NCBI GenBank assembly: GCA_907163375.1
Contig: CAJQUW010005777.1
Span: forward strand, 1 to 64,000
Reading direction: 5' to 3'
Origin: Prostheceraeus crozeri
Lineage: Eukaryota; Platyhelminthes; Polycladida; Euryleptidae
DNA length: 64,000 nt
Shown here: positions 45,347 to 63,214 of the stretch, piece by piece
Layout of the letters: each line of letters begins with the position of its first letter
How positions within the stretch are numbered: the first letter of the stretch is position 1
Notes under the pieces: model-generated
The model's input: the letters and a program-made list of their open reading frames with translations, nothing else
The model's database searches: none
What the model was told of the DNA's origin: nothing
Translations under genes and position numbers: made by a program

Positions 45347-45442
45347 CGAGCCTTCCACAGTGAGAATAATTCTATCGTTGAATCATACGAGTAACGGACG
45401 CACATTTTCTCTCTCTCTATTCTATTCTATTATCCAACTAAA

Positions 45443-46217
45443 ATGGTAAGTCGCTACTTTCCTCCCTCTCCTCCCTTAAACGTAAACTTAATACAATCTT
45501 TTTCCATTTTCAGTTATCTACTCCATCTGCTGCACTAGTAGGACAAAATGGCGGTCAAACGTTACACGTTTCGCTACGGTCAGATCATCTACAACTGAGG
45601 CCAGTGGAAGAAACAACCAAGGTACATAATCCTACACCGCTACAGCGTAAATTTAAACAAGTCTTGCGTTATGACGATCATGGCGTAGTACTCCAAACGG
45701 GAATGCTCCCTTCCACGGATGTCAAGATAATGCACAATCAGTATGGGGACTACATACTGATCCCCGTGAGTCCGTACATTCGCCACCAACTTGATATTAT
45801 TGAGGAGTACGTGACATTAAATATGGACATCCCTACTCCTCTTGCTCAAGAGTGGAAGGCGAGAGATGACAAGGATACTCCCTATAGAAGATTTGGGATG
45901 GTAATCACATTTGCCTACCGGTATCACATTGGTGCACTTACTATAAGAAGGAGGGAGATCATTCAACACCCATCACATGCGACGAGCTCGGAGAAGGTAC
46001 TTGGGATATCCTTTTCAAAGTGAATGGGCTATATTATGGTCGGCATAAGGATAATAAAATAGCCTCTCTATCCATGCATATGGAATACATACTATATATT
46101 CCAAAACCACCCAACGTGGACGGCATAATTGATCAAATCCTTAACAGCAGTGGTACGAAGCGCAAGTCGGAGAAGAATGCTGCATCAAAACGCAAATCAA
46201 AGAAGGAGAATTACTAG
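45443..46217 (+). pseudogene. Gene 1 (left arm), spliced after the ATG, frameshifted
   Basis: The ATG at 45443 is followed directly by GTAAGT. A 68-bp intron ends TTTTCCATTTTCAG at 45513, and exon 2 opens in frame with LSTPSAALVGQNGG. The frame then runs to about 45890, where one A fewer than the right arm shifts it; the tail continues in the next frame to 46217. The right-arm copy (63990-63215) is intact. The function is unknown; see that entry. Confidence 0.7.
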
Positions 46218-46250
46218 TCCTTTCCTAACTCTACCCTATGACATTCGCTT

Positions 46251-46376
46251 ATGTACTTTGAGTGTCGTAGACGTGGTCTTATTAGGTACATTTTACTTCT
46301 TCGTTGCCATCATATCATTTGTGTATTTTGTCGTGAAAAGCATCGATGTAATTCTTCATTTTGTAATATGTTATAG
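46251..46376 (+). CDS. Small RING-like protein (left arm), first Cys lost
   Basis: 41-aa frame from an internal ATG. It keeps RCHHIICVFC and the later Cys pairs, but the first metal ligand is Tyr (MYFEC) where the right arm has Cys (MCFEC). Probably damaged. Confidence 0.4.
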   Translation: MYFECRRRGLIRYILLLRCHHIICVFCREKHRCNSSFCNML

Positions 46377-46410
46377 AACGTTTCCTTAGATGTGTAAATT
46401 TCCGTTTTAG

Positions 46411-46947
46411 GCTTCTATCATCATTTTTATGGATTGTGAGGGTGAACCTGTACAGGAGCTCAGTGCTATTGCTATGAACAATTGGACATATCAGATTGTC
46501 AGTGTCTATCATCAACATGCCAACTGCAATCCCAATGTTGATCAATGGGCGAGAAAACACAATCTGAAATATTTGCAAGACTATGGCTTTTCTTGTGAAA
46601 GTGCTCTTCTTATTGACTTTAAACGATGGTTAGCTGCTTTCAATGTTATACGCATCTTTTGTAATAATCCTGGTAAGGAGAGGAAAGTATTTCCCAATTT
46701 AATCATTGATGATATTTTGCTCCCACCTTGGGATAGTAGAGTGAATCAACATTATCATGAAGTCACGAAACGTTTTAAGGATTTGTGTGTTCCTATTTTG
46801 TCTGTTCGTTGTAGTAGCTACATTCATAACCAATGCTTCTTTCCTCCTTACCTCAACACTGCCAAAGTCCTGTATGGTTATCATTGCTCGCTGTATGATA
46901 GTTACCAGCTGTATCTATTTTATCTCTTTCAAACCATTGATTTATAA
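46411..46947 (+). CDS. DEDDh (DnaQ-like) exonuclease (left arm)
   Basis: Same protein as 63020-62472, opening after an acceptor (CCGTTTTAG/GCTTCT) with ASIIIFMDCEGEP. It lacks 12 bp relative to the right arm, removing the HG of the HIHGL motif in frame. The active-site DxE and HCSLYD are kept. A 4-residue loss in a conserved motif suggests damage. Confidence 0.55.
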   Translation, partial: ASIIIFMDCEGEPVQELSAIAMNNWTYQIVSVYHQHANCNPNVDQWARKHNLKYLQDYGFSCESALLIDFKRWLAAFNVIRIFCNNPGKERKVFPNLIIDDILLPPWDSRVNQHYHEVTKRFKDLCVPILSVRCSSYIHNQCFFPPYLNTAKVLYGYHCSLYDSYQLYLFYLFQTIDL

Positions 46948-47008
46948 TGCATGCTTGTTACCGTTATTCAATAAATGTTACTATGAGAAGAGTTGTTGCT
47001 TTCATGCA

Positions 47009-47447
47009 ATGGATGGGTTAGTTAAAGGGCGATCATGTCTTTCTCAAACGACTGCGGAAACATTACATTTTCATAGGCAAAGTTTAAAAGGAGCTGTTCA
47101 AGATTATGTGATAAATTTTCATAAAGATGAGACCGACATCGAAGCAGTGGTCGATGATGCTAGCACTCTATTTCTAGAGGTTAATGAATACATTCTCTGA
47201 TAGCATTGTCATGGCGCGATTAGTTGCGAAAATTAAGTTTAGTCATTTTGGAAAGGAAGAGGTGGAAAGTCGCTCTTTCCATTTTGCTTCTTATTCAATG
47301 GAAGTGGTAGATCACCCCAAGAATTTTTTAAAAGACATATGATTAAAAATTGCTGAACGTCTTAACGCATTTAACCATCATGGTAGCAGTCTAGTGATTG
47401 AAGCGATTTCAGATATTCACATTCAACTTTCCATAAAGGAAAATTGA
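47009..47447 (+). pseudogene. PolB-leader-like protein (left arm), frameshifted
   Basis: It begins MDGLVKGRSCLSQTTAE and stays open through DYVINFHKDETDIEAVVDDA. One extra G at about 47180 then shifts the frame; the remaining ~85 residues continue in the adjacent frame to 47447. The right copy is broken at other sites, so neither arm is intact. See the right-arm entry for family evidence. Confidence 0.5.
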
Positions 47448-47449
47448 AA

Positions 47450-47774
47450 ATGCAGTGGTACTTGATTGTAGCACAACTGGTTTTTCGAGCTATGTCTGCT
47501 CACTCTCGAAGTATATTCCTTCTGTACATGCGTCTATTATTTAGAAAAGGCTAGCAAATTCATATCTTCAAAAAGACTTGCTATAGACATCAGTAACGGC
47601 GAAACTATGTGTTGTGATGTATGTAAGCGAAAGGATGGAAATGAAAAGCGCATCTTCAAGAGATGTAAGCATGCTTTTTGTCAACGCTGTTTCATACGTA
47701 ATTGCATTCAACTTTGCCAATGTAACCACTGTGATATTGCTCATTTCGAGTGTCACTTATGTCGCAATAGTTAG
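47450..47774 (+). pseudogene. RING membrane protein (left arm), frameshifted
   Basis: The ATG lies 2 nt after the stop of the preceding gene. One extra T at about 47490 shifts the frame within the N-terminal hydrophobic part. The RING portion (CCDVC...CKHAFCQRC...CHLC) is intact in the adjacent frame. Confidence 0.6.
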
Positions 47775-47838
47775 TACCTATGCAAATGTGGTAAAGATAG
47801 GTCTTTAGCAAAGACTAACACGGAAATGGAAACGTAAA

Positions 47839-48183
47839 ATGACGAAACGTAAAAGTCAAAAGTTTTCTTCAGCCATTCAAGCTCTCCGACGAATGAAAGC
47901 AAATCAGCGATACAATGCTATACGACATGCTAACGATAAATTCATTTGTGAAATTATTTCTCATGTGAGGAGGAAGTTGAGGACGAAGAAATTAGCGCCA
48001 AAACAACGAAAGTTACTTAAGCGATATGCTACGAAATTGCGTTTCATCTCCAATCCTAAAGTCACCCTTCAAAGAAAGAGGAAAACTCTAACACAAAAGG
48101 GCGGTTTCCTTTCAGCAATACTTCCAATGATAGCTCCTGCCGTGGGCAACCTATTGGGTAATATCTTTGGCTCTAAGCGTTAA
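47839..48183 (+). CDS. pX-like basic protein with hydrophobic GG tail (left arm)
   Basis: 114 aa, the counterpart of 61595-61239. The right-arm start codon is lost to small indels, so this copy would start at the next ATG (MTKRKSQKF). It ends KGGFLSAILPMIAPAVGNLL plus a short basic tail. Confidence 0.65.
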   Translation: MTKRKSQKFSSAIQALRRMKANQRYNAIRHANDKFICEIISHVRRKLRTKKLAPKQRKLLKRYATKLRFISNPKVTLQRKRKTLTQKGGFLSAILPMIAPAVGNLLGNIFGSKR

Positions 48184-48214
48184 TTATGCAAATGTTGAAT
48201 CTCAAAGTAATAAA

Positions 48215-48833
48215 ATGGATTTCAGACTTCAATGTGATAAAGTTCTGACTGTATCAGGTCCATCTCATGCAGGTAAAACTGTTTTCACGCTGAATTTATT
48301 GGATAAAAGAAGGGAGTTGTTTAAGGAACCTATCAATCGAGTGATTTGGTGTTATGGTATTTATCAACCGTCGCTATTTCAGGAATTGCAAAGTCGCAAC
48401 TTTATTCGACATGAAGGAATTATTCCAGTGGATAAACTTCAGTCTAATGATGTTGTTGTATTGGATGATTTATTAAAGGAAAGTAAGAATTCAAAAGATG
48501 TTACAGATATGTTCACTCGCGCAGCACATCATAAAAGGTGCTTTATCATCTATATCACACAAAATTTGTTTCCTGATGGAAAAGAAGCTCGTACACGAAA
48601 CCTGAATACACACTATTATGCTATTTTCAAGAATCCGCGAGATAAAAGTCAATTTGAAATTTTAGCGCGACAAGTTGCACCCAGAGGATCAAAAGCCTTA
48701 ATTGAAATTTTTTCAAGCAGCTACTGAAAAACCATACGGTTACTTATTCATTGACTTTACGCAAGAGTGTCCGGAAGAATTTAGATTTCGAAGTGATATT
48801 TTGAAAACTCCCATGATTATCTACAAACTATGA
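48215..48833 (+). pseudogene. Packaging ATPase (left arm), frameshifted near the C-terminus
   Basis: Identical to the right-arm ATPase through residue ~165, including Walker A (GPSHAGKT) and Walker B (VVLDDLL). An extra T at about 48712 gives an early stop at 48725-48727, removing the last ~35 residues. The original stop overlaps the next ATG as ATGA at 48830. Confidence 0.8.
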
Positions 48834-49522
48834 GTTCTTATTCTCGCATGATTGTTATTCCTCAGGATGAATATGTACAATTGACTGCCATGCAGCAAGT
48901 AAAGCAACCTCTTGCAAATCAAATGTATAGGAAAGAAATAGATTATCAGCAAAATGTTCACATCAAAGATCCACATCGTGCTGTATTATTACAATCGGAA
49001 ACTGTTGAGCAATTGAAAAACTTGAAGAATAAGATGCGTGACTCTGTATCGACTGCTACACCTTTAGCATCTCGCGCACATGCCATATCTCTTTTCAACA
49101 GTATTGAACCCCATCTCAATGTAAATGATAGAGGAGAAATCATTACAGATGAAAATAAAGTGATTGATGCTTCACGTTATGAAGACTTGATTCAGTATGC
49201 GACACGTAGAAAGCGCCGTCAGGGCTATGTTCCACCTGGTTGGTCATACTTTCTTAAACTATTGAAAAAGCATAATGTGCCAAAATTTGCTTTAAATAAT
49301 GAGACATTGAAAGAACTTGATTCAACAGTGGCTACTACTCCAATGCTTCAGGCGATGAAAATGCCAACAAATTGGTTTAAGACGTCACCTGCTACATCCC
49401 CTCCCACACTCACTAAGCAAACAAGAGGAAGAACTCGACGTAGATCTACATCACCACTAAAACTAGTAAAAGGAAAACGTAAAACAGCTCCTCCTAGGAA
49501 ATACATGTTCTCAGACTATTAA
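48830..49522 (+). CDS. Polinton 230-aa conserved protein (left arm)
   Basis: Intact and apparently identical in sequence to 60593-59901; see there. Its stop is one nucleotide before the ATG of the Cys-rich frame. Confidence 0.75.
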   Translation: MSSYSRMIVIPQDEYVQLTAMQQVKQPLANQMYRKEIDYQQNVHIKDPHRAVLLQSETVEQLKNLKNKMRDSVSTATPLASRAHAISLFNSIEPHLNVNDRGEIITDENKVIDASRYEDLIQYATRRKRRQGYVPPGWSYFLKLLKKHNVPKFALNNETLKELDSTVATTPMLQAMKMPTNWFKTSPATSPPTLTKQTRGRTRRRSTSPLKLVKGKRKTAPPRKYMFSDY

Positions 49523-49523
49523 T

Positions 49524-49706
49524 ATGAAGCAGATGTGTTGCTTGCCATGTAATGAGCCGCCAGTGGTGAATGTCGTTGTCACTTGCACTTGCTGCGCCAG
49601 CTCTCATAATGAAACCCCTAAGCAATGTGAACACGATCGCAAAACCGCTAAAGCTAAATGCTGCAGTTGTTGTAAATGTAGAAAGGCAAGAGAAACAAAA
49701 AGATGA
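49524..49706 (+). CDS. Cys-rich 60-aa protein overlapping the integrase start (left arm)
   Basis: It contains thirteen Cys in 60 residues, in CC and CxxC clusters (CCLPC, CTCC, KCCSCCKC). The stop TGA overlaps the integrase start as ATGA (49703-49706). The right-arm copy is 71 aa because a one-base difference removes this stop. The function is unknown; a metal-binding microprotein is possible. Confidence 0.45.
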   Translation: MKQMCCLPCNEPPVVNVVVTCTCCASSHNETPKQCEHDRKTAKAKCCSCCKCRKARETKR

Positions 49707-50793
49707 GAAGGAGAAAAAAGAGTCAGTCGTCATCGACTGAACGTTTGAAGTCAATCTATTATGATGTAAAACATCCGGCAGGATTTGCATCTATCAAGAA
49801 ATTATCAAAAGCGAGTGGTCTTCCACAATCACAAGTGAAACGATGGTTAAAGGGTCAGGCTACCTATACACTCCACAAAGAAGCGAAAAAGAAGTACCGC
49901 ACCCGCCATTATATTGTTCATGACATCGATGAACAGTAGCAAGCAGATTTGTGTGATGTTGCCTCCATTTCAAAACATAACTCGGGCAATAATTTTTATT
50001 TTAACCGTCATTGATATTTTCTCGCGTTATGCGTGGGCTCAACCTTTAAAAACTAAAGAAGGGAAAGGAGTAGCAAAAGCATTCCAAACAATTTTTCGAG
50101 AAGGTCGCATTCCAAAAAGAATTCAGAGTGATCAAGGAAAAGAGTTTGAAAATCAGCATGTGACAAGATTATTTGAGAGGCATGACATTGAGTTGTTTAG
50201 TGTAAAGAGCGCTTATAAAGCTGCACTCGTTGAACGTTTTAATCGCACATTAAAAAATCGCTTGTGGCGACATTTTACTGCCAACTTGACACAAAATTGG
50301 ACAAAGGTTCTACAAGATACACTCCATGCCTACAATCACTCTATCCATCGTTCTATTGGACTCAGACCAGTAGATGTAAATGCTGACAATGTAGATAAAG
50401 TGCGCGAATCATTCCAACGTAAACGCACTCAGCTGACAAGTGAGGTGAAAATTGGCGATAAAGTTCGTATCTCTCAAAAGTGAAAAGTGTTTTTGCTAAA
50501 GGGTACCTTCCGAATTGGACAGAGGAGGATTTTACAGTATCAAGGATTAATCAAAAAGACTCTCCGACCACCTACAAGTTGAAAGATTACGATAATGAAG
50601 AAATTGAGGGTAGCTTTTACCGCGATGAGATTGAGGTAGTCACTGAAAGTGAAACATATTTGGTAGAGAAAATCATTCGATGTAAAAAACGGCAAGGTGA
50701 AGAATGGTGTCTTGTTAAATGGACTGGTTATCCTTCAAGTATGAACTCTTGATGCGTCGTGCCGACATCTTTCATCTAAGTGATCGACAGTGA
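49703..50793 (+). pseudogene. Integrase with chromodomain (left arm), broken
   Basis: Relative to the intact right arm (59721-58633) this copy has a TAG in place of a Trp codon after DIDEQ (about 49937), an extra T near 50000, a shift near 50480, and a missing G in the chromodomain (about 50750). The catalytic SDQGKEFEN and ALVERFNRTLK remain readable. Confidence 0.8.
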
Positions 50794-50834
50794 TTCATGC
50801 AAAGTTGTAACTAACAATGTTTAGGGTTTGAGCT

Positions 50835-51290
50835 ATGAATCCAACTGCCTCATTTTATTCACGACCCTCCTATGTAAGTGGTGGAGGACAAATTTACATC
50901 GGCGCTCGCCGCCAACGTGGAGGTAGCATACTTGGTGCACTGAAATCTGTTGTAGCACCTCTCATATCCAATGTCGGTAGATCTTTAAAACGAAATGTTT
51001 TAAGTAATGCCGTTGGCTTTGCTGGTGATGTTGCTAGTGATCTTTCCAGAGGTAGAAGTTTTAAGAGCAGTTTGTTGAATCGTGGGAAGGAACGCGGTTT
51101 AAAAACATTGAAGCAGACCTTTGCTGGTGTTACTCAAGGAAAGAAATCACCTAAACGAATGAAAAAAGGAAGGAGGAAACATCGCGGAGCTGGTAAGGTG
51201 CGATCTTCAGTCAAAAGGCATTCACGCAAACGTCGCAGAGGCTCTAATCATTCATCAGGCGCTAAACGACGACGCTGCTATAACTTCTAA
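50835..51290 (+). CDS. pVI-like minor capsid protein (left arm)
   Basis: 151 aa, intact, with a few substitutions against 58591-58136 (for example TFAG for TIAG and RMKKG for RMNKG). These are real base differences between arms, not indels. The stop lies 2 nt before the MCP ATG. Confidence 0.7.
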   Translation: MNPTASFYSRPSYVSGGGQIYIGARRQRGGSILGALKSVVAPLISNVGRSLKRNVLSNAVGFAGDVASDLSRGRSFKSSLLNRGKERGLKTLKQTFAGVTQGKKSPKRMKKGRRKHRGAGKVRSSVKRHSRKRRRGSNHSSGAKRRRCYNF

Positions 51291-51292
51291 TC

Positions 51293-52570
51293 ATGGAGTG
51301 TAAAACTTCCGGTTTTTGTTTGTTTGATCAACAAGCCATACAGACAGATATTCTTAGTTCAAGTATTGTAGATTATCATCCTCGAACAGCTGAGAATGCT
51401 GGCCCCATTGAATTTGTTATTCCTGGTGGTAGTGATGACTACATAGATTTGAGTTATGCGATGCTTGATTTGAGGTTTAGAATTCAGCAAGCAGATGGAA
51501 CTGCTATTGACGATGCACATAAAGTTGGACTGAACAATTTACCATTGACTACATTACTTCGCGATGTTTCTCTAACGATTGGAGAGCAGCAGGTGGAAGG
51601 TGGTCAAAGCGATTATCCCTATAAATCATATTTCAATCATGTATCACAGTTTCATCCAGCAGCACAAAAAAGTCATATGGAAGCCATGGGATGGTACAGA
51701 GATGAAGCAGGAAAATTTGATGTTGAAACAAACAGTGGCTTTGTAAAGCGATCTGCTATGATTAAAGATAGTAGAGTATGTCAGCTATATGGTCCGCTGA
51801 ATTTAGACTTCTTTAGACAGTCAAAGTTTTTACTCTGTAATACCAGCATGCGACTCAAGCTGACATTGAATAAGCCTGAATTTGCGCTGAATGCATTTGC
51901 TAAAGTTGACAATTTTAGAATTCATGTGGAAGATATTGCACTTTACATTCGTCGAGTAGTACCGAATCCAAGTGTCATTAGAGGGCATGCTGAAGGTCTT
52001 AACCGCCAAAATGCCATTTACCCCGTTCAGCATACAAAGCTTCTCACCTTTACAATTCCGAAAGATCAAAAGAGTTTCATGAAAGATGGCCTCTTTCCAT
52101 CGGAAGCACCGAAGCTCCTCATGGTGGCAATGGTTGAAAATGATGCATTTAATGGTAATATAAAGAAGAATCCTTTCAATTTTAAACACAATCAGTTAAG
52201 TGAAATTGCTTTACGTGTAAATGGTGTGAGTCATCCTGGTCCACCCTACAAACCAGATTTTGCTTCGGATCAATTTATGCGCAGTTATGTTGATTTTATG
52301 GATGTCTTTGGCTTTTACAATACGGATGACACCAACGGACTGACTATGAAAGAGTTTAAGAGTGGATATACTATTTATGCATTTGATTTGACTGCTGACA
52401 GCGATATTAGTGCACCCTATCGTCAAGCGAACGTGCCTCATAATATTCGTTTGGATTTGACGTTCAAAAGAACACTACCTGAGACGATCAATGTATTAAT
52501 TTATGCAGTCTTCGATTCAAATATTGAAATTACAAAGTATCGTGACGTGATTCTTCAGTATAATCGTTAA
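51293..52570 (+). CDS. Major capsid protein, double jelly-roll type (left arm)
   Basis: 425 aa, intact and the same protein as 58133-56856; see there. Its TAA shares one base with the protease ATG (TAATG at 52568-52572). Confidence 0.9.
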   Translation: MECKTSGFCLFDQQAIQTDILSSSIVDYHPRTAENAGPIEFVIPGGSDDYIDLSYAMLDLRFRIQQADGTAIDDAHKVGLNNLPLTTLLRDVSLTIGEQQVEGGQSDYPYKSYFNHVSQFHPAAQKSHMEAMGWYRDEAGKFDVETNSGFVKRSAMIKDSRVCQLYGPLNLDFFRQSKFLLCNTSMRLKLTLNKPEFALNAFAKVDNFRIHVEDIALYIRRVVPNPSVIRGHAEGLNRQNAIYPVQHTKLLTFTIPKDQKSFMKDGLFPSEAPKLLMVAMVENDAFNGNIKKNPFNFKHNQLSEIALRVNGVSHPGPPYKPDFASDQFMRSYVDFMDVFGFYNTDDTNGLTMKEFKSGYTIYAFDLTADSDISAPYRQANVPHNIRLDLTFKRTLPETINVLIYAVFDSNIEITKYRDVILQYNR

Positions 52571-53031
52571 TGAGTTGGTTGACTGCTGACGATATTAAGA
52601 CTAAAGTGCAGCGTAATGCAGACGAAGCGACGTTGAAAGCTTTCGATAATGTCTATTCACTCGATACCTTACCACCTGCAGTAAATCACTATCCCATCTT
52701 TATTGTGCTAAACACTCATTCACAGAATTTAGGCGGTGAGCATTGGAAAGCGATCTTTATTGGAGAAGACCGACGTGGTGAACTATTTGACTCTCTTGCT
52801 CAACCTCCAAATATACCAACACAGCAGTGGTTGAGAAAACATACGCGTCAATATCAGCGAAATGAACGCATACTACAACATCCACTTTCATCAACGTGTG
52901 GTGCTTTTGTACTGTACTTCATCTTAAAACGTTTACATGTATCTCGATTTGCATCTATTATTCAAAACTTTTCATGTAATCCATCCTCTAATGAAAAAAT
53001 GATTTGTAAGTTCTATCATGATTTGAAATAA
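52570..53031 (+). CDS. Adenain-type cysteine protease (left arm)
   Basis: 153 aa, intact, one conservative substitution (I for V near residue 129) against 56856-56395. The catalytic His58, Asp74, Gln103 and Cys110 are all present. The stop overlaps an AATAAA polyadenylation signal. Confidence 0.88.
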   Translation: MSWLTADDIKTKVQRNADEATLKAFDNVYSLDTLPPAVNHYPIFIVLNTHSQNLGGEHWKAIFIGEDRRGELFDSLAQPPNIPTQQWLRKHTRQYQRNERILQHPLSSTCGAFVLYFILKRLHVSRFASIIQNFSCNPSSNEKMICKFYHDLK

Positions 53032-53062
53032 AAACATCATGTTGGAAAAATTGTTTTTTATT
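53028..53062. terminator. Shared bidirectional poly(A) region (left arm)
   Basis: AAATAAAAAC at the protease end (plus) and AAATAAAAAAC read on the minus strand at the TBP-like end lie within ~35 bp. Convergent transcripts would thus polyadenylate in the same short interval. Confidence 0.55.
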
Positions 53063-53602
53063 TTACAATCCGCTGGGTACGTACATACTCAATGAGATAG
53101 TCTAGGATCATATTTGCTTGTACATGAGATTTTAGTCCAGTAATGATCACTTTACTATTATGAAAGATTGCCACATGCACAGGTAACCAACAACTAATGA
53201 GAGCTGCAGGAAAAAGTTCGGGTTCATAACACAAACTGTAACTGCTGGTACGAATCTTCAAAATGATAGACTGTCACTCAATTGAGTAGAGATCACCATA
53301 TTGTCCACAGTCAGATTCGACATCACACACCTCTCCCTCTTCCATATCCGACGTAGTAGTCTTTGTAGCTCTAAGCGCATTGACTGCGCCGATGAATGAG
53401 AAAGGGCGCCGAGAATCTGTACAGTCCCATTTGGGAAGAGTTGAAGATTCCGTGAATTGTTCATCTTCACCACTAACATTTGAGGACGGCCCGGGTAATA
53501 CTTGCTGTTTGGAAGCTGTTGGTGTAATGTTGTGAGATCGATTTTGGTGTAGAGTCTGAAGCGACGGAGAATGTTGACGATGGTGTAGCGATGGCGCTTC
53601 AT
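53058..53602 (-). pseudogene. TBP-like protein (left arm), frameshifted
   Basis: Matches the intact right-arm TBP core (55823-56368). One T fewer near 53268 ends this frame at SLSF, between the two TBP repeats. The second repeat, including YEPELFP, continues in another frame to 53058. Confidence 0.8.
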
Positions 53603-53924
53603 GATGAAAGAATGAGTAAATTGAGCGATGTACCTTCCTTTTATACTTTTCCCAACTACCTTGATGAAATGTGAAGTTAGTATGAAGTTGGGAATGATAG
53701 AGTTGAATTCGCCGATTGTTGACGCGCAGCCAGATGCGATTTCCAATACGTGAATGTCTTTTCATATAGAAGTATTTCAAGTCCTTCATGATATGATGTA
53801 GAGATTGAAAATGACGATAAGATAAAGCAAACTCTCTTCTCACATTTCCAGTTGAATCTTTGAAATAGACGTTTCGATCATGAACCGTTTCAATACGTTG
53901 TAGGGAATCTAATTTCCAACTCAT
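53274..53924 (-). CDS. PC4-like paralogue 2 (left arm), 216 aa
   Basis: Same as 55501-56151 with a V for D change near residue 14. It overlaps the TBP-like frame. See the right-arm entry. Confidence 0.5.
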   Translation of the reverse strand: MSWKLDSLQRIETVHDRNVYFKDSTGNVRREFALSYRHFQSLHHIMKDLKYFYMKRHSRIGNRIWLRVNNRRIQLYHSQLHTNFTFHQGSWEKYKRKVHRSIYSFFHHEAPSLHHRQHSPSLQTLHQNRSHNITPTASKQQVLPGPSSNVSGEDEQFTESSTLPKWDCTDSRRPFSFIGAVNALRATKTTTSDMEEGEVCDVESDCGQYGDLYSIE

Positions 53925-53946
53925 GGTGCGTGGTAGTCATGTCTGA

Positions 53947-54251
53947 TTAAGATTTGCATAGTAGGGCGATGAACTCACGACGAATAAATGTCATGATGGA
54001 GCGATGTATATATCTTCTATACTTCTCCCAATTGTATTTGCGAAATGAGAAACAGTTTGCGGAAGGAGAATGGTAGATTTGAATTGCATTTCTGTAATGT
54101 TGAAGCCAAACTTGATCACCCAAGGAGATGAATCTTAATGTTTCAAAATATTCCAAATCCCTCATGATATCATTGAGGTTGACAAATTGTCGCCTGGTTA
54201 ATGTAATTCCTCTTGATGTATGACCATGAGAATTTTTGAAATGTACGTTTT
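53947..54251 (-). pseudogene. PC4-like paralogue 1 (left arm), 5'-truncated
   Basis: It matches 55176-55478; the perfect mirror stops at GTACGTTT (about 54251), so the first ~18 residues are lost to the corrupted centre. A few substitutions are present (YRNA for YRNE, HSPS for HSHS). Confidence 0.5.
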
Positions 54252-54255
54252 ACCC

Positions 54256-54665: not shown

Positions 54666-54672
54666 ACTTAGA

Positions 54673-55086
54673 TTAAACAATTCTTAAACTTGGACTTAAA
54701 CCAACAATCCAATCTTTCTCAACTACATGATGTACATAATTATAATCATCATTGTGCGGAGTAAATTGGACAATATGTTTACACGCTTTATTCAAGAAAT
54801 CATATATAAACTTTTTACATGATAAGAGATCTTTCTTTGGCCACTGTGGAATGTATACTCGGCACCCCTTTTCACATTGATAAGCAGCTGTACGCCTCAT
54901 ATTAATAGTCATCACCTCATGATCAAAAGTATAGACACAGTTGCTATAAACAAGTTGAGTGACACCCACTTCCCAATTTCCATTTAGCTGTTGTGCATGA
55001 TCAATGGGAGTAGAAAAGAGTGCGGCTCGATTACTAGTAAATCTCTTTGTAGCCGCATTGCTAAGCAAAATATGATAAAACGACAT
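54673..55086 (-). CDS. Penton/fibre-type protein, N-terminal fragment
   Basis: 137 aa from ATG, beginning MSFYHILLSNAATKRFTSNR and containing LNGNWEVGVTQLVYSNCVYT. The pattern FYxxLxSN...(F/Y)xxNxxxxFxTxL...L.G.WEVGxxxxxY is a common N-terminus of Polinton-encoded virion proteins, probably vertex or attachment components. It is much shorter than those proteins and stops at the palindrome centre (SPSLRIV, stop), so the C-terminal part is missing. It diverges from the PC4-like gene at 55122, with only 35 bp between start codons. Confidence 0.55.
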   Translation of the reverse strand: MSFYHILLSNAATKRFTSNRAALFSTPIDHAQQLNGNWEVGVTQLVYSNCVYTFDHEVMTINMRRTAAYQCEKGCRVYIPQWPKKDLLSCKKFIYDFLNKACKHIVQFTPHNDDYNYVHHVVEKDWIVGLSPSLRIV

Positions 55087-55121
55087 TTTTATATTGCTAA
55101 TCTGCAACTTTGCATAACATC

Positions 55122-55478
55122 ATGAAGACTTGGATTTTGGACTCTCTACAATATATCAGAGTTGATCGTGATGGAAACGTACATTTCAAAAATTCTCATG
55201 GTCATACATCAAGAGGAATTACATTAACATGGCGACAATTTGTCAACCTCAATGATATCATGAGGGATTTGGAATATTTTGAAACATTAAGATTCATCTC
55301 CTTGGGTGATCAAGTTTGGCTTCAACATTACAGAAATGAAATTCAAATCTACCATTCTCATTCCGCAAACTGTTTCTCATTTCGCAAATACAATTGGGAG
55401 AAGTATAGAAGATACATACATCGCTCCATCATGACATTTATTCGTCGTGAGTTCATCGCCCTACTATGCAAATCTTAA
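55122..55478 (+). CDS. PC4-like paralogue 1 (putative ssDNA-binding coactivator-like)
   Basis: 118 aa. It reads DSLQYIRVDRDGNVHFKN, then SRGITLTWRQFVNLNDIMRD. This resembles PC4/p15, where short beta strands are followed by KGISLsxxQWxxLKxxI. A second similar half follows (GDQVWLQHYRNEIQIYHS, then FSFRKYNWEKYRRYIHRSI), suggesting two tandem modules. PC4 proteins bind single-stranded DNA and stimulate pol II initiation. It is 22 nt upstream of paralogue 2 and in a cluster with the TBP-like gene. The family call is by pattern only and needs a profile search. Confidence 0.45.
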   Translation: MKTWILDSLQYIRVDRDGNVHFKNSHGHTSRGITLTWRQFVNLNDIMRDLEYFETLRFISLGDQVWLQHYRNEIQIYHSHSANCFSFRKYNWEKYRRYIHRSIMTFIRREFIALLCKS

Positions 55479-55500
55479 TCAGATATGACTACCACACACC

Positions 55501-56151
55501 ATGAGTTGGAAATTAGATTCCCTACAACGTATTGAAACGGATCATGATCGAAACGTCTATTTCAAAGATTCAACTGGAAATGTGAGAAGAGAGTTTGCTT
55601 TATCTTATCGTCATTTTCAATCTCTACATCATATCATGAAGGACTTGAAATACTTCTATATGAAAAGACATTCACGTATTGGAAATCGCATCTGGCTGCG
55701 CGTCAACAATCGGCGAATTCAACTCTATCATTCCCAACTTCATACTAACTTCACATTTCATCAAGGTAGTTGGGAAAAGTATAAAAGGAAGGTACATCGC
55801 TCAATTTACTCATTCTTTCATCATGAAGCGCCATCGCTACACCATCGTCAACATTCTCCGTCGCTTCAGACTCTACACCAAAATCGATCTCACAACATTA
55901 CGCCAACAGCTTCCAAACAGCAAGTATTACCCGGGCCGTCCTCAAATGTTAGTGGTGAAGATGAACAATTCACGGAATCTTCAACTCTTCCCAAATGGGA
56001 CTGTACAGATTCTCGGCGCCCTTTCTCATTCATCGGCGCAGTCAATGCGCTTAGAGCTACAAAGACTACTACGTCGGATATGGAAGAGGGAGAGGTGTGT
56101 GATGTCGAATCTGACTGTGGACAATATGGTGATCTCTACTCAATTGAGTGA
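55501..56151 (+). CDS. PC4-like paralogue 2 with overprinted acidic tail
   Basis: 216 aa. Residues 1-108 are paralogous to the preceding gene (WKLDSLQRIE, RNVYFKDSTGNVRREFALSY, WEKYKRKVHRSIYSFFHHEA). From about residue 108 to the end the frame overlaps the TBP-like gene in another register for 329 nt. It reads a His/Gln/Ser-rich then acidic tail (GEDEQFTESS, DMEEGEVCDVESD). The overlap may be a true overprint or simply an open frame over TBP coding. No stop intervenes in either arm. Confidence 0.5.
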   Translation: MSWKLDSLQRIETDHDRNVYFKDSTGNVRREFALSYRHFQSLHHIMKDLKYFYMKRHSRIGNRIWLRVNNRRIQLYHSQLHTNFTFHQGSWEKYKRKVHRSIYSFFHHEAPSLHHRQHSPSLQTLHQNRSHNITPTASKQQVLPGPSSNVSGEDEQFTESSTLPKWDCTDSRRPFSFIGAVNALRATKTTTSDMEEGEVCDVESDCGQYGDLYSIE

Positions 56152-56368
56152 CAGTCTATCATTTTTGAAGATTCGTACCAGCAGTTACAGTTTGTGTTAT
56201 GAACCCGAACTTTTTCCTGCAGCTCTCATTAGTTGTTGGTTACCTGTGCATGTGGCAATCTTTCATAATAGTAAAGTGATCATTACTGGACTAAAATCTC
56301 ATGTACAAGCAAATATGATCCTAGACTATCTCATTGAGTATGTACGTACCCAGCGGATTGTAAAATAA
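55823..56368 (+). CDS. TATA-binding protein (TBP) core homologue encoded by a Polinton
   Basis: 181 aa from ATG, exactly the length of a TBP core. Two direct repeats are visible. Repeat 1 (about 6-86): YTIVN, TKIDLTTLRQQLPNSKYYPG, MLVVKM, LFPNGTVQILGALS. Repeat 2 (about 98-175): VDNMVISTQL, YEPELFPAALI, VAIFHNSKVIITGLKS. These align with TBP's IVSTVNL...NAEYNPxRF...IFSSGKxVxTGAKS and YEPELFPGLI...IFVSGKxVLTGAK. Three of the four DNA-kinking Phe positions are kept (F56, F131, F147); the first (KRF in TBP) is PQ here. It should bend TATA DNA and recruit TFIIB/pol II, or act as a decoy. It is convergent with the protease and sits beside PC4-like genes. Confidence 0.85.
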   Translation: MKRHRYTIVNILRRFRLYTKIDLTTLRQQLPNSKYYPGRPQMLVVKMNNSRNLQLFPNGTVQILGALSHSSAQSMRLELQRLLRRIWKRERCVMSNLTVDNMVISTQLSDSLSFLKIRTSSYSLCYEPELFPAALISCWLPVHVAIFHNSKVIITGLKSHVQANMILDYLIEYVRTQRIVK

Positions 56369-56398
56369 AAAACAATTTTTCCAACATGATGTTTTTAT
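56364..56398. terminator. Shared bidirectional poly(A) region (right arm)
   Basis: AAAATAAAAAAC at the TBP-like stop (plus) faces the minus-strand AAATAAAAACATC at the protease stop; transcripts converge within ~35 bp. Confidence 0.55.
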
Positions 56399-56856
56399 TT
56401 CAAATCATGATAGAACTTACAAATCATTTTTTCATTAGAGGATGGATTACATGAAAAGTTTTGAATAACAGATGCAAATCGAGATACATGTAAACGTTTT
56501 AAGATGAAGTACAGTACAAAAGCACCACACGTTGATGAAAGTGGATGTTGTAGTATGCGTTCATTTCGCTGATATTGACGCGTATGTTTTCTCAACCACT
56601 GCTGTGTTGGTATATTTGGAGGTTGAGCAAGAGAGTCAAATAGTTCACCACGTCGGTCTTCTCCAATAAAGATCGCTTTCCAATGCTCACCGCCTAAATT
56701 CTGTGAATGAGTGTTTAGCACAATAAAGATGGGATAGTGATTTACTGCAGGTGGTAAGGTATCGAGTGAATAGACATTATCGAAAGCTTTCAACGTCGCT
56801 TCGTCTGCATTACGCTGCACTTTAGTCTTAATATCGTCAGCAGTCAACCAACTCAT
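56395..56856 (-). CDS. Adenain-type (C5) cysteine protease
   Basis: 153 aa. Residues GGEHWKAIF supply His58, ELFDSL supplies Asp74, ILQHPLSSTCGAFVLYF supplies oxyanion Gln103 and Cys110, the order and local motifs of adenovirus/Polinton maturation proteases. It would cleave precursor virion proteins during capsid maturation. It is shorter than adenain (~204 aa) but normal for Polintons. The ATG overlaps the MCP stop by one base (TAATG), so translation probably follows from the capsid message. Confidence 0.9.
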   Translation of the reverse strand: MSWLTADDIKTKVQRNADEATLKAFDNVYSLDTLPPAVNHYPIFIVLNTHSQNLGGEHWKAIFIGEDRRGELFDSLAQPPNIPTQQWLRKHTRQYQRNERILQHPLSSTCGAFVLYFILKRLHVSRFASVIQNFSCNPSSNEKMICKFYHDLK

Positions 56857-58133
56857 TAACGATTATACTGAAGAATCACGTCACGATACTTTGTAATTTC
56901 AATATTTGAATCGAAGACTGCATAAATTAATACATTGATCGTCTCAGGTAGTGTTCTTTTGAACGTCAAATCCAAACGAATATTATGAGGCACGTTCGCT
57001 TGACGATAGGGTGCACTAATATCGCTGTCAGCAGTCAAATCAAATGCATAAATAGTATATCCACTCTTAAACTCTTTCATAGTCAGTCCGTTGGTGTCAT
57101 CCGTATTGTAAAAGCCAAAGACATCCATAAAATCAACATAACTGCGCATAAATTGATCCGAAGCAAAATCTGGTTTGTAGGGTGGACCAGGATGACTCAC
57201 ACCATTTACACGTAAAGCAATTTCACTTAACTGATTGTGTTTAAAATTGAAAGGATTCTTCTTTATATTACCATTAAATGCATCATTTTCAACCATTGCC
57301 ACCATGAGGAGCTTCGGTGCTTCCGATGGAAAGAGGCCATCTTTCATGAAACTCTTTTGATCTTTCGGAATTGTAAAGGTGAGAAGCTTTGTATGCTGAA
57401 CGGGGTAAATGGCATTTTGGCGGTTAAGGCCTTCAGCATGCCCTCTAATGACACTTGGATTCGGTACTACTCGACGAATGTAAAGTGCAATATCTTCCAC
57501 ATGAATTCTAAAATTGTCAACTTTAGCAAATGCATTCAGCGCAAATTCAGGCTTATTCAATGTCAGCTTGAGTCGCATGCTGGTATTACACAGTAAAAAC
57601 TTTGACTGTCTAAAGAAGTCTAAATTCAGCGGACCATATAGCTGACATACTCTACTATCTTTAATCATAGCAGATCGCTTTACAAAGCCACTGTTTGTTT
57701 CAACATCAAATTTTCCTGCTTCATCTCTGTACCATCCCATGGCTTCCATATGACTTTTTTGTGCTGCTGGATGAAACTGTGATACATGATTGAAATATGA
57801 TTTATAGGGATAATCGCTTTGACCACCTTCCACCTGCTGCTCTCCAATCGTTAGAGAAACATCGCGAAGTAATGTAGTCAATGGTAAATTGTTCAGTCCA
57901 ACTTTATGTGCATCGTCAATAGCAGTTCCATCTGCTTGCTGAATTCTAAACCTCAAATCAAGCATCGCATAACTCAAATCTATGTAGTCATCACTACCAC
58001 CAGGAATAACAAATTCAATGGGGCCAGCATTCTCAGCTGTTCGAGGATGATAATCTACAATACTTGAACTAAGAATATCTGTCTGTATGGCTTGTTGATC
58101 GAACAAACAAAAACCGGAAGTTTTACACTCCAT
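56856..58133 (-). CDS. Major capsid protein, double jelly-roll (hexon-like)
   Basis: 425 aa, beginning MECKTSGFCLFDQQAIQTDI. It has the features of Polinton MCPs related to the C. elegans F54H12.2-type proteins: an N-terminal IDYxPxxxxxGPIEF-like strand, a GSDDYIDLSYAMLDLRFRI strand, HPGPPYKPDFA mid-protein, and a C-terminal KSGYTIYAFDLTADSD... and RLDLTFKRTLPETINVLIYA. Two jelly rolls are predicted. It should form trimeric capsomers of an icosahedral particle. Both arms keep it intact, which argues for recent activity. The start is 2 nt after the stop of the pVI-like gene. Confidence 0.9.
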   Translation of the reverse strand: MECKTSGFCLFDQQAIQTDILSSSIVDYHPRTAENAGPIEFVIPGGSDDYIDLSYAMLDLRFRIQQADGTAIDDAHKVGLNNLPLTTLLRDVSLTIGEQQVEGGQSDYPYKSYFNHVSQFHPAAQKSHMEAMGWYRDEAGKFDVETNSGFVKRSAMIKDSRVCQLYGPLNLDFFRQSKFLLCNTSMRLKLTLNKPEFALNAFAKVDNFRIHVEDIALYIRRVVPNPSVIRGHAEGLNRQNAIYPVQHTKLLTFTIPKDQKSFMKDGLFPSEAPKLLMVAMVENDAFNGNIKKNPFNFKHNQLSEIALRVNGVSHPGPPYKPDFASDQFMRSYVDFMDVFGFYNTDDTNGLTMKEFKSGYTIYAFDLTADSDISAPYRQANVPHNIRLDLTFKRTLPETINVLIYAVFDSNIEITKYRDVILQYNR

Positions 58134-58135
58134 GA

Positions 58136-58591
58136 TTAGAAGTTATAGCAGCGTCGTCGTTTAGCGCCTGATGAATGATTAGAGCCTCTGCGACGTTTGC
58201 GTGAATGCCTTTTGACTGAAGATCGCACCTTACCAGCTCCGCGATGTTTCCTCCTTCCTTTATTCATTCGTTTAGGTGATTTCTTTCCTTGAGTAACACC
58301 AGCAATGGTCTGCTTCAATGTTTTTAAACCGCGTTCCTTCCCACGATTCAACAAACTGCTCTTAAAACTTCTACCTCTGGAAAGATCACTAGCAACATCA
58401 CCAGCAAAGCCAACGGCATTACTTAAAACATTTCGTTTTAAAGATCTACCGACATTGGATATGAGAGGTGCTACAACAGATTTCAGTGCACCAAGTATGC
58501 TACCTCCACGTTGGCGGCGAGCACCGATGTAAATTTGTCCTCCACCACTTACATAGGAGGGTCGTGAATAAAATGAGGCAGTTGGATTCAT
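58136..58591 (-). CDS. pVI-like minor capsid/membrane-active protein precursor
   Basis: 151 aa. After a Gly/Tyr-rich N-terminus, GGGQIYIGARRQRGG (16-30) is followed by an amphipathic helix, SILGALKSVVAPLISNVGRS, and a long Lys/Arg-rich tail (SSVKRHSRKRRRGS). A GG ahead of an amphipathic helix recalls adenovirus pVI and pX precursors cut by adenain at xGG/x sites. I infer a minor capsid or core protein released by the protease encoded two genes downstream. The plus-strand frame at 58305-58532 is a shadow. Confidence 0.65.
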   Translation of the reverse strand: MNPTASFYSRPSYVSGGGQIYIGARRQRGGSILGALKSVVAPLISNVGRSLKRNVLSNAVGFAGDVASDLSRGRSFKSSLLNRGKERGLKTLKQTIAGVTQGKKSPKRMNKGRRKHRGAGKVRSSVKRHSRKRRRGSNHSSGAKRRRCYNF

Positions 58592-58632
58592 AGCTCAAAC
58601 CCTAAACATTGTTAGTTACAACTTTGCATGAA

Positions 58633-59721
58633 TCACTGTCGATCACTTAGATGAAAGATGTCGGCACGACGCATCCAAGAGTTCATACTTGAAGGATAAC
58701 CAGTCCATTTAACAAGACACCATTCTTCACCTTGCCGTTTTTTACATCGAATGATTTTCTCTACCAAATATGTTTCACTTTCAGTGACTACCTCAATCTC
58801 ATCGCGGTAAAAGCTACCCTCAATTTCTTCATTATCGTAATCTTTCAACTTGTAGGTGGTCGGAGAGTCTTTTTGATTAATCCTTGATACTGTAAATACC
58901 TCCTCTGTCCAATTCGGGAGGTACCCTTTAGCAAAAACACTTTTCACTTTTGAGATACGAACTTTATCGCCAATTTTCACATCACTTTTCACATGAGTGC
59001 GTTTACGTTGGAATGATTCGCGCACTTTATCTACATTGTCAGCATTTACATCTACTGGTCTGAGTCCAATAGAACGATGGATAGAGTGATTGTAGGCATG
59101 GAGTGTATCTTGTAGAACCTTTGTCCAATTTTGTGTCAAGTTGGCAGTAAAATGTCGCCACAAGCGATTTTTTAATGTGCGATTAAAACGTTCAACGAGT
59201 GCAGCTTTATAAGCGCTCTTTACACTAAACAACTCAATGTCATGCCTCTCAAATAATCTTGTCACATGCTGATTTTCAAACTCTTTTCCTTGATCACTCT
59301 GAATTCTTTTTGGAATGCGACCTTCTCGAAAAATTGTTTGGAATGCTTTTGCTACTCCTTTCCCTTCTTTAGTTTTTAAAGGTTGAGCCCACGCATAACG
59401 CGAGAAAATATCAATGACGGTTAAAATAAAATTATTGCCCGAGTTATGTTTTGAAATGGAGGCAACATCGCACAAATCTGCTTGCCACTGTTCATCGATG
59501 TCATGAACAATATAATGGCGGGTGCGGTACTTCTTTTTCGCTTGTTTGTGGAGTGTATAGGTAGCCTGACCCTTTAACCATCGTTTCACTTGTGATTGTG
59601 GAAGACCACTCGCTTTTGATAATTTCTTGATAGATGCAAATCCTGCCGGATGTTTTACATCATAATAGATTGACTTCAAACGTTCAGTCGATGACGGCTG
59701 ACTCTTTTTCCTCCTTCTCAT
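58633..59721 (-). CDS. Polinton DDE integrase with C-terminal chromodomain
   Basis: 362 aa from the first sensible ATG (59721); the frame is open further upstream only over the Cys-rich gene. The core shows EQWQADLCDV (Asp82 or Asp85), IQSDQGKEFEN (Asp143) and AALVERFNRTLKNR (Glu177), a retroviral-type D,D-35-E spacing. The N-terminus has a helix-turn-helix-like SIKKLSKASGLPQSQVKRWL. The C-terminus is a chromodomain (about 318-356: YLVEKIIRCK, EEWCLVKWTGYP, NSWMRR), which targets insertion to chromatin in related elements. Intact here, broken in the left arm. Confidence 0.9.
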   Translation of the reverse strand: MRRRKKSQPSSTERLKSIYYDVKHPAGFASIKKLSKASGLPQSQVKRWLKGQATYTLHKQAKKKYRTRHYIVHDIDEQWQADLCDVASISKHNSGNNFILTVIDIFSRYAWAQPLKTKEGKGVAKAFQTIFREGRIPKRIQSDQGKEFENQHVTRLFERHDIELFSVKSAYKAALVERFNRTLKNRLWRHFTANLTQNWTKVLQDTLHAYNHSIHRSIGLRPVDVNADNVDKVRESFQRKRTHVKSDVKIGDKVRISKVKSVFAKGYLPNWTEEVFTVSRINQKDSPTTYKLKDYDNEEIEGSFYRDEIEVVTESETYLVEKIIRCKKRQGEEWCLVKWTGYPSSMNSWMRRADIFHLSDRQ

Positions 59722-59899
59722 CTTTTTGTTTTCTTGCCTTTCTACATTTACAACAACTGCAGCATTTAGCTTTAGCGGTTTTGCGATCGTGTTCACATTG
59801 CTTAGGGGTTTCATTATGAGAGCTGGCGCAGCAAGTGCAAGTGACAACGACATTCACCTCTGGCGGCTCATTACATGGCAAGCAACACATCTGCTTCAT
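59684..59899 (-). CDS. Cys-rich 71-aa protein overlapping the integrase start
   Basis: It begins MKQMCCLPCNEPPEVNVVV one nucleotide after the stop of the 230-aa gene. The Cys clusters are CCLPC, CTCC and KCCSCCKC. It overlaps the integrase start by ~38 nt because a single-base difference from the left arm removes the TGA. Unrecognised; it could be a small metal-binding protein. Confidence 0.45.
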   Translation of the reverse strand: MKQMCCLPCNEPPEVNVVVTCTCCASSHNETPKQCEHDRKTAKAKCCSCCKCRKARKQKDEKEEKESAVID

Positions 59900-59900
59900 A

Positions 59901-60593
59901 TTAATAGTCTGAGAACATGTATTTCCTAGGAGGAGCTGTTTTACGTTTTCCTTTTACCAGTTTTAGTGGCGATGTAGATCTACGTCGAGTTCTTCCTCTT
60001 GTTTGCTTAGTGAGTGTGGGAGGGGATGTAGCAGGTGACGTCTTAAACCAATTTGTTGGCATTTTCATCGCCTGAAGCATTGGAGTAGTAGCCACTGTTG
60101 AATCAAGTTCTTTCAATGTCTCATTATTTAAAGCAAATTTTGGCACATTATGCTTTTTCAATAGTTTAAGAAAGTATGACCAACCAGGTGGAACATAGCC
60201 CTGACGGCGCTTTCTACGTGTCGCATACTGAATCAAGTCTTCATAACGTGAAGCATCAATCACTTTATTTTCATCTGTAATGATTTCTCCTCTATCATTT
60301 ACATTGAGATGGGGTTCAATACTGTTGAAAAGAGATATGGCATGTGCGCGAGATGCTAAAGGTGTAGCAGTCGATACAGAGTCACGCATCTTATTCTTCA
60401 AGTTTTTCAATTGCTCAACAGTTTCCGATTGTAATAATACAGCACGATGTGGATCTTTGATGTGAACATTTTGCTGATAATCTATTTCTTTCCTATACAT
60501 TTGATTTGCAAGAGGTTGCTTTACTTGCTGCATGGCAGTCAATTGTACATATTCATCCTGAGGAATAACAATCATGCGAGAATAAGAACTCAT
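59901..60593 (-). CDS. Polinton conserved 230-aa protein of unknown function
   Basis: It starts MSSYSRMIVIPQDEYVQLTA. The centre has LLQSETVEQLKNLKNKMRDS (likely helical) and YVPPGWSYFLKLLKKHNVPK, reminiscent of a GWxxFxxxLxxxNVP motif shared by many Polinton proteins without known role. The C-terminus is Arg/Ser/Pro-rich (TRGRTRRRSTSPLKL), suggesting nucleic-acid contact. The ATG overlaps the ATPase stop as ATGA. It may be a core or assembly protein. Confidence 0.7.
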   Translation of the reverse strand: MSSYSRMIVIPQDEYVQLTAMQQVKQPLANQMYRKEIDYQQNVHIKDPHRAVLLQSETVEQLKNLKNKMRDSVSTATPLASRAHAISLFNSIEPHLNVNDRGEIITDENKVIDASRYEDLIQYATRRKRRQGYVPPGWSYFLKLLKKHNVPKFALNNETLKELDSTVATTPMLQAMKMPTNWFKTSPATSPPTLTKQTRGRTRRRSTSPLKLVKGKRKTAPPRKYMFSDY

Positions 60594-61207
60594 AGTTTGT
60601 AGATAATCATGGGAGTTTTCAAAATATCACTTCGAAATCTAAATTCTTCCGGACACTCTTGCGTAAAGTCAATGAATAAGTAACCGTATGGTTTTTCAGT
60701 AGCTGCTTGAAAAATTTCAATTAAGGCTTTTGATCCTCTGGGTGCAACTTGTCGCGCTAAAATTTCAAATTGACTTTTATCTCGCGGATTCTTGAAAATA
60801 GCATAATAGTGTGTATTCAGGTTTCGTGTACGAGCTTCTTTTCCATCAGGAAACAAATTTTGTGTAATATAGATGATAAAACACCTTTTATGGTGTGCTG
60901 CGCGAGTGAACATATCTGTAACATCTTTTGAATTCTTACTTTCTTTTAATAAATCATCCAATACAACAACATCATTAGACTGAAGTTTATCCACTGGAAT
61001 AATTCCTTCATGTCGAATAAAGTTGCGACTTTGCAATTCCTGAAACAGCGACGGTTGATAAATACCATAACACCAAATCACTCGATTGATAGGTTCCTTA
61101 AACAACTCCCTTCTTTTATCCAATAAATTCAGCGTGAAAACAGTTTTACCTGCATGAGATGGACCTGATACAGTCAGAACTTTATCACATTGAAGTCTGA
61201 AATCCAT
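60590..61207 (-). CDS. FtsK/HerA-type genome-packaging ATPase
   Basis: 205 aa from ATG 61207. Walker A is GPSHAGKT (15-22), Walker B is DVVVLDDLL with Asp84/Asp85, and a sensor-like FIIYITQNLFPDGKEAR (Gln116) follows, then YAIFKNPRDKSQFEILARQV, all typical of Polinton and adintovirus packaging ATPases. It should pump DNA into the capsid. An open frame extends 16 codons further upstream from a TTG, with no ATG. The last four bases overlap the next gene (ATGA). Confidence 0.9.
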   Translation of the reverse strand: MDFRLQCDKVLTVSGPSHAGKTVFTLNLLDKRRELFKEPINRVIWCYGIYQPSLFQELQSRNFIRHEGIIPVDKLQSNDVVVLDDLLKESKNSKDVTDMFTRAAHHKRCFIIYITQNLFPDGKEARTRNLNTHYYAIFKNPRDKSQFEILARQVAPRGSKALIEIFQAATEKPYGYLFIDFTQECPEEFRFRSDILKTPMIIYKL

Positions 61208-61238
61208 TTTATTACTTTGAGACTCAACATTTGCATAA

Positions 61239-61595
61239 TTAACGCTTAGAGCCAAAGATATTTCCCAATAGGTTGCCCACGGCAGGAGCTATCATTGGAA
61301 GTATTGCTGAAAGGAAACCGCCCTTTTGTGTTAGAGTTTTCCTCTTTCTTTGAAGGGCGACTTTAGGATTGGAGATGAAACGCAATTTCGTAGCATATCG
61401 CTTAAGTAACTTTCGTTGTTTTGGCGCTAATTTCTTCGTCCTCAACTTCCTCACATGAGAAATAATTTCACAAATGAATTTATCGTTAGCATGTCGTATA
61501 GCATTGTATCGCTGATTTGCTTTCATTCGTCGGAGAGCTTGAATGGCTGAAGAAAACTTTTGACTTTTACGTTTCGTCATTTTACGTTTCGCCAT
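61239..61595 (-). CDS. pX-like basic protein with GG and hydrophobic C-terminus
   Basis: 118 aa. Residues 1-90 are highly basic (KRKMTKRKSQKF, KKLAPKQRKLLKRY), then QKGGFLSAILPMIAPAVGNL and a short GSKR end. A basic body with a GG-FLSAILPxIAPxxGxLLG tail is the pattern of adenovirus pX and Polinton core/membrane proteins. I infer condensation of DNA and, after cleavage at GG, membrane activity. It lies 51 nt after the RING gene and ~30 nt before the ATPase ATG. Confidence 0.65.
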   Translation of the reverse strand: MAKRKMTKRKSQKFSSAIQALRRMKANQRYNAIRHANDKFICEIISHVRKLRTKKLAPKQRKLLKRYATKLRFISNPKVALQRKRKTLTQKGGFLSAILPMIAPAVGNLLGNIFGSKR

Positions 61596-61646
61596 TTTCC
61601 GTGTTAGTCTTTGCTAAAACCTATCTTTACCACATTTGCATAGGTA

Positions 61647-61970: not shown

Positions 61971-61972
61971 TT

Positions 61973-62410: not shown

Positions 62411-62471
62411 TGCATGAAAACAACAACTCTTCTCATAGTAACATTTATTGAATAATGGTAACAAGCATGCA

Positions 62472-63020: not shown

Positions 63021-63054
63021 CTAAAACGGAAATTTACACATCTAAGGAAACGTT

Positions 63055-63180: not shown

Positions 63181-63214
63181 AAGCGAATTGTCATAGGGTA
63201 GAGTTAGGAAAGGA

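Follow-up and report, generated by a model that had tools for sequence, protein, structure and literature searches.

Virus-encoded TATA-binding proteins (TBPs) are known from giant viruses, African swine fever virus (ASFV; B263R) and mirusviruses, all of them large viruses reported to encode an RNA polymerase as well, and, on the basis of fold, from herpesviruses. A precedent for the locus described here is found in the late promoters of beta- and gammaherpesviruses, where a virus TBP-like protein is reported to act on a TATT box that replaces TATA (PMC4893493). The proteins BcRF1 of Epstein-Barr virus (EBV), ORF24 of murine herpesvirus 68 (MHV-68) and UL87 of human cytomegalovirus (HCMV) are described as acting with host RNA polymerase II (Pol II) on this TATA variant (PMC4893493, PMC8360532), and are set apart by about 10% identity to TBP and by partner late factors (PMC4893493). 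Because EBV BcRF1 alone is reported there to bind TATA and TATT equally in vitro, its partners may supply the specificity of the late system (PMC4893493). Here we describe a Polinton-like element of the polyclad flatworm Prostheceraeus crozeri, part of which lies in a 64,000-nt stretch of contig CAJQUW010005777.1 (positions 1 to 64,000; hereafter the window), which carries a TBP gene. Like the herpesviruses, the element encodes a TBP-like protein, for which we propose a variant box and host Pol II; it differs in that its TBP is recognisable by sequence and in its box, which is of the TATGCAAA type, the recurrent 7-mer ahead of its genes being ATGCAAA and not TATT. Unlike in giant viruses, ASFV and mirusviruses, no RNA polymerase gene was seen in the portion of the element within the window.

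The gene lies at positions 55823..56368 (+) and translates into 181 aa plus stop. Both TBP repeats, which an earlier sequence-only reading of the window had recognised in this frame, were recovered by the Pfam TBP family PF00352, which matched two stretches of the protein (E 8.1e-20; score 70.9 bits, cut-off 22.9). Sequences of solved structures at E <= 1 comprised 35 distinct entries, every one of them a TBP (top E 2.1e-12), and the predicted structure was a two-fold saddle. Absence of a TBP profile hit or of the saddle would, by the terms of the same reading, have refuted it, and the protein thus withstood both checks. A protein search with the 181-aa query gave 99 candidates, including 60 relatives at E <= 0.001 with 34-81% identity to the query; all 60 were precomputed as PF00352, placing the TBP identity far beyond chance. 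The frame is a genuine TBP-family protein, and the initial observation is confirmed. It has in common with cellular TBP the two PF00352 repeats, the saddle, both minor-groove Asn residues, three of the four intercalating Phe residues and the TFIIB stirrup, but the N-terminal DNA face and the TFIIA contact are changed and a long 100/100 branch lies between the two.

The positions contacting DNA, TFIIB and TFIIA, with the roles given them in the TBP literature, were numbered by alignment with human TBP and counted over up to 60 family rows. In the C-terminal half, Asn257 (60/60), Val259 (60/60), Phe288 (59/60), Phe305 (60/60) and Thr313 (59/60) were kept. The TFIIB contacts E284 (59/60), E286 (60/60), P289 (60/60) and L287 (53/60) were also retained, giving the stirrup of a canonical TBP. 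The N-terminal half kept Asn167 in all 49 aligned rows and Phe214 in 60/60, but its first intercalating Phe, F197, was Pro in 57 of 58 rows, and L212 was replaced by Gln (56/60), V220 by Gln (60/60) and T222 by Leu (54/60). One further position in the C-terminal half, V301, was His throughout (60/60). With the first Phe, L212, V220, T222 and V301 changed, the four intercalating Phe residues and the hydrophobic minor-groove surface of a canonical TBP are not intact. At the TFIIA contact E191, Lys stood in 45 of the 58 rows aligned there. Position 220 varies in cellular TBPs too, since the M. jannaschii TBP carries Asn there. Judged from the aligned residues, the N-terminal DNA face is altered, with most of the C-terminal half and of the TFIIB stirrup retained; the DNA face differs from that of a canonical TATA binder, and what is new here is that it is altered in a manner conserved across the family. 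Because new polar residues are fixed on a normally hydrophobic surface, the pattern suggests a change in DNA reading rather than decay of the surface.

The family was aligned as the query plus 59 of the 60 relatives (alignment A1, 60 rows), and 26 of these rows were placed in a tree whose other TBPs came from eukaryotes (three), archaea (three) and IMG/VR (two), leaving out TRF/TLF and most viral TBPs. The element family was split off by a 100/100 branch, drawn as two halves of 3.14 and 2.18 changes per column; the archaeal TBP branch was shorter (1.3 changes per column). The two IMG/VR viral TBPs grouped among eukaryotic TBPs, outside the element family. A phylogeny had been suggested by the sequence-only reading; in the present tree the element family is set apart from cellular TBPs by its 100/100 branch. 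The lineage is unlikely to stem from a recently captured host TBP. Relatives P0048-P0061 constituted a deep TBP subfamily with an additional Gly in the VQIL-G stretch, the eight members included in the tree forming a 100/100 branch 1.5 long within the element family.

Upstream sequences of 12 genes, an uncertain 204-aa gene being excluded, were compared over the zone from -20 to -60 nt relative to the start. The commonest 7-mer was ATGCAAA, present at 5 of the 12 starts. A 7-mer maximum this high was reached in 0/2000 random-position draws and 0/3000 Markov draws; the corresponding figures were 0.6% and 0.3% for 6-mers, and 0.05% and 0.03% for 8-mers (4/12 starts). Spacing ranged from 29 to 46 nt ahead of the ATG, with boxes before the genes for a presumed pX-like protein (61635..61641, minus strand, 46 nt), a candidate packaging ATPase (61230..61236, minus strand, 29 nt), a 151-aa protein (58623..58629, minus strand, 38 nt), a presumed penton-like protein (55109..55115, minus strand, 29 nt) and a 216-aa protein (55466..55472, plus strand, 35 nt). 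Several box-bearing genes head tight gene clusters: the box-less genes for a 425-aa capsid-like protein and a protease candidate lie directly behind the 151-aa gene, and a box-less 230-aa gene directly behind the ATPase gene. The motif TATGCAAA occurred once in 1-45432 vs seven times in 45433-64000, counting both of the inverted arms described below.

A canonical TATA box (TATA[AT]A[AT]) was found in the same zone before the TBP gene alone among the 12 starts. This TATAAAA (55780..55786, plus strand) begins 43 nt before the TBP ATG, inside the upstream open reading frame (ORF), and is followed after about 30 nt by an initiator-like TCATTC (55810-55815, plus strand), also ahead of the TBP gene. 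N-terminal extensions of at least 12 residues before the Met of P0001 were present in 17 of the 60 rows, with IK about 14 codons upstream in 9 of these 17 (by eye); conservation of the TATA box was not read from them, as coding constraint on the upstream ORF explains IK equally well.

We propose that host TBP/TFIID reads the TATA box ahead of the element TBP gene, so that the element TBP would be made early. With its altered N-terminal DNA face, this protein would then bind the TATGCAAA-type box before the five genes and, its TFIIB stirrup being largely kept, would recruit TFIIB and Pol II of the host to these boxes, so that the element would have a promoter class of its own, probably a later one. 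Specificity partners could also act here, as perhaps with EBV BcRF1. Box binding, TFIIB recruitment, loss of the TFIIA contact and timing are all what we infer from this arrangement. Our best explanation, in which a TBP lineage is carried by Polinton/adintovirus-like elements and its TATA-driven product brings TFIIB and Pol II of the host to boxes of the element, is given about an even chance when these parts are taken jointly. More tentatively, a Polinton-like family may have evolved a private core-promoter system, consisting of a re-engineered TBP and a TATGCAAA-type box before virion genes, with a host-read TATA box switching the TBP on; this broader claim we hold to be possible but somewhat doubtful. 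The sequence-only reading had offered two roles, that the element sets up its own transcription initiation or blocks that of the host, and the former would be preferred; its interpretation is, overall, partly supported.

Several observations count against this proposal. The -20 to -60 zone was fixed only after examples had been seen, and the ATGCAAA box is known from one element. ATGCAAA occurred seven times in 54251-64000, five of these being the upstream boxes and two lying elsewhere in the right part, and another 12 times in 1-45432. Seven of the 12 starts (425-aa capsid-like, protease, 230-aa, integrase, 118-aa, 176-aa and TBP) had no box, and not all of the box-less integrase, 176-aa and 118-aa genes are directly behind a box-bearing gene. 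The TATA box of the TBP gene falls inside the coding region of the ORF upstream, where coding constraint is a confounder, and a second TATAAAA stands 7 nt ahead of the penton-like ATG. In the protein, L303 of the C-terminal half was also replaced (Ala in 44/60), and the C-terminal stirrup (residues 129-136) was the lowest-confidence part of the saddle model. Finally, ATGCAAA matches the octamer site of host POU factors, of which TATGCAAAT is the consensus.

This last match is the basis of the alternative that survives best, namely that host POU factors use the boxes as octamer sites and that the element TBP acts more generally at the element's promoters without reading them. Three of the five boxes read ATGCAAAT, in keeping with such sites, but the other two read ATGCAAAG, and all five lie 29-46 nt before the ATG, a core-promoter position, with no TATA beside them in the zone; we regard host POU factors as an unlikely explanation. 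Slightly less probable is a competitor role, in which the element TBP would bind host TFIIB or TATA boxes without initiation and so damp the transcription of the host or of rival viruses. Retention of the TFIIB-contact residues alongside an altered DNA face and TFIIA contact would suit a competitor, but the DNA face is fixed to new residues (V220 to Q and V301 to H, each in 60/60), which fits a specific DNA-binding role, and a candidate box, ATGCAAA, exists. It is improbable that the element TBP reads ordinary TATA and boosts the TBP supply for TATA-driven element genes, with ATGCAAA unrelated: its C-terminal half is largely canonical and a TATA box precedes its own gene, but in the tested zone a TATA box stands before only 1 of the 12 starts, and the intercalating Phe residues are kept at three of four positions, the first being Pro in 57/58. 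A non-initiation role of the TBP fold, e.g., in genome packaging or replication, would agree with the altered DNA face and with a place among virion-type genes, but is very improbable given that the TFIIB contacts of the stirrup, needless for such a role, are kept in 59-60 of 60 rows.

The assignment of the locus to a Polinton-like element is well supported. An integrase with an rve core and a chromodomain (58633..59853, minus strand; PF00665 1.3e-10, PF00385 6.4e-07) was present, as in Polintons/Mavericks and in adintoviruses, whose rve integrase is reported to have a C-terminal chromodomain (PMC11071296). From integrase to protease, the genes stand in an order similar to that reported for vertebrate Mavericks (PMC8097293). 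Read leftwards, the right arm encodes on the minus strand a 118-aa basic protein (61239..61595), an A32-like packaging ATPase candidate (60590..61207; PF04665 E 0.022, under the cut-off), a 230-aa protein (59901..60593), the integrase, a 151-aa basic protein (58136..58591), the 425-aa capsid-like protein (56856..58133) and an Ulp1/adenain-like cysteine protease candidate (56395..56856; PF02902 E 0.0012, score 19.2 bits, cut-off 20.7; ASFV S273R E 0.015). On the opposite strand beyond the protease follow the 118-aa (55122..55478), 216-aa (55501..56151) and TBP frames, and past these the start of a second capsid-type gene (54673..55086, minus strand), which is cut at the palindrome junction. The pX-like label of the 118-aa basic protein and the penton-like label of the second capsid-type gene are tentative. 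F54H12.2-like, the label of the 425-aa protein, comes from the sequence-only reading; this protein had 263 relatives and found no match among Pfam families and solved structures. No PolB was matched among the scanned ORFs of the window, nor was a DTDS-like motif seen in frames >= 60 aa; the element runs off the window. Of the Polinton named in the sequence-only reading, the rve and chromodomain integrase and the gene order stand; matches for the protease, ATPase and capsid either fell below cut-off or were lacking, and PolB did not turn up in the window. The TBP gene does lie within the virion gene cluster, among virion-type genes. It is likewise convergent with the gene at 56395-56856 (minus strand), as had been claimed, the adenain identity of that gene being a sub-cut-off match. 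On the minus strand at about 63990-63215 and 63050-62472, the sequence after the ATG resembled a spliced leader (GTAAGT ... TTTTCAG), and an acceptor-like TTTTAG preceded the 176-aa frame. Introns in the element would be unusual, since none are reported from intact vertebrate Mavericks (PMC8097293).

The right arm (55175-64000) is mirrored by an inverted copy at 45433..54250 (plus strand); over 8.8 kb the two are 98.7% identical, with 80 mismatches and 19 gap openings. As the sequence-only reading had it, each arm holds a TBP copy, the left one (about 53058..53602, minus strand) being frameshifted because a homopolymer differs in length by one base. Between the arms, the TBP gene differed by one substitution, which was non-synonymous. 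The palindrome tip (54251-54680) repeated the start of the adjacent penton-like gene in degraded form, with many indels and 75-82% identity, which may reflect poor sequence or assembly quality at the centre of the inverted duplication and in the left arm; because the tip is noisy, the left arm was treated as weak independent evidence and set aside. Outside the tip, the arms differed by 54 transitions and 28 transversions, and substitutions in eight minus-strand genes were synonymous in 19 cases and non-synonymous in 16 (P 0.0002 if 75% non-synonymous is assumed). These differences look like real divergence.

Beside the TBP gene, 55122-55478 and 55501-55820 are tandem paralogous frames with 45% identity, the latter being the N-terminal part of the 216-aa ORF. 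The last 108 codons of this ORF overlap the TBP gene and remain open there in another frame. When synonymous codons of the TBP gene were permuted with the protein kept, the overlap frame ran equally far without a stop in 0.025% of 20000 permutations, a frame chosen for the test because it had been seen open. So low a value suggests dual coding in part of the TBP gene, and gene prediction that disallows overlaps may overlook one or other frame. The 118-aa protein had four database relatives besides itself. Its first half weakly resembles the domain of the PC4 coactivator, but a PC4-like nature of this neighbour is not claimed: P was 0.02-0.03 for the first half in three of five sequences, 0.22-0.32 in the other two and 0.06-0.45 for the second halves, and neither the Pfam matches nor the seven weak solved-structure matches (best E 0.022) named a PC4 family.

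Neither the viral contigs scanned with the TBP, the TBP alignment, the 425-aa protein and its alignment, nor the genome contigs scanned with the two alignments, gave a relative. Pairing by equal contig size, tested against shifted controls and including 120 of the 263 capsid relatives, was suggestive in two cases. The TBP P0002 (81% identical) and the 118-aa protein P0063 (80% identical) both came from 1771-base contigs (control mean 0.05). Contigs of 11119 bases were likewise the source of both the capsid relative P0068 and the 118-aa protein P0065 (control mean 0.04). On these weak hints, it is likely that other elements have a TBP in the same position. A pairing of TBP P0013 with capsid P0153 at 7106 was not significant, at least one such match occurring in 42% of shifted controls, and one at 12876 was trivial, consisting of the window's own proteins.

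Elsewhere in the window, a direct repeat (33486-35137 and 39043-40692, about 5556 nt apart) contained several blocks of 95-100% identity. Retroelement pieces, namely an integrase core, reverse transcriptase, endonuclease and CCHC zinc knuckle, lay at 14459-19313 (minus strand) and 42772-43194 (plus strand).

The sequence-only reading had held that a TBP falls outside the Polinton gene set known to it, and in the papers searched by term we found no report of a TBP in a Polinton. PMC10675990 places TBPs in mirusvirus-like elements and not in its polinton-like viruses, and PMC11071296 and PMC8097293 contain no TATA or transcription-factor term. If our proposal is true, the pairing of a dedicated TBP with a box of its own would represent a private initiation step arising in a small element with no polymerase of its own in view, and a compact natural example of changing TBP specificity, in the form of a named protein-box pair open to direct testing. 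For the Polinton-like family, a private core-promoter system would amount to a two-step early/late switch at Polinton size, independent of that of the herpesviruses.
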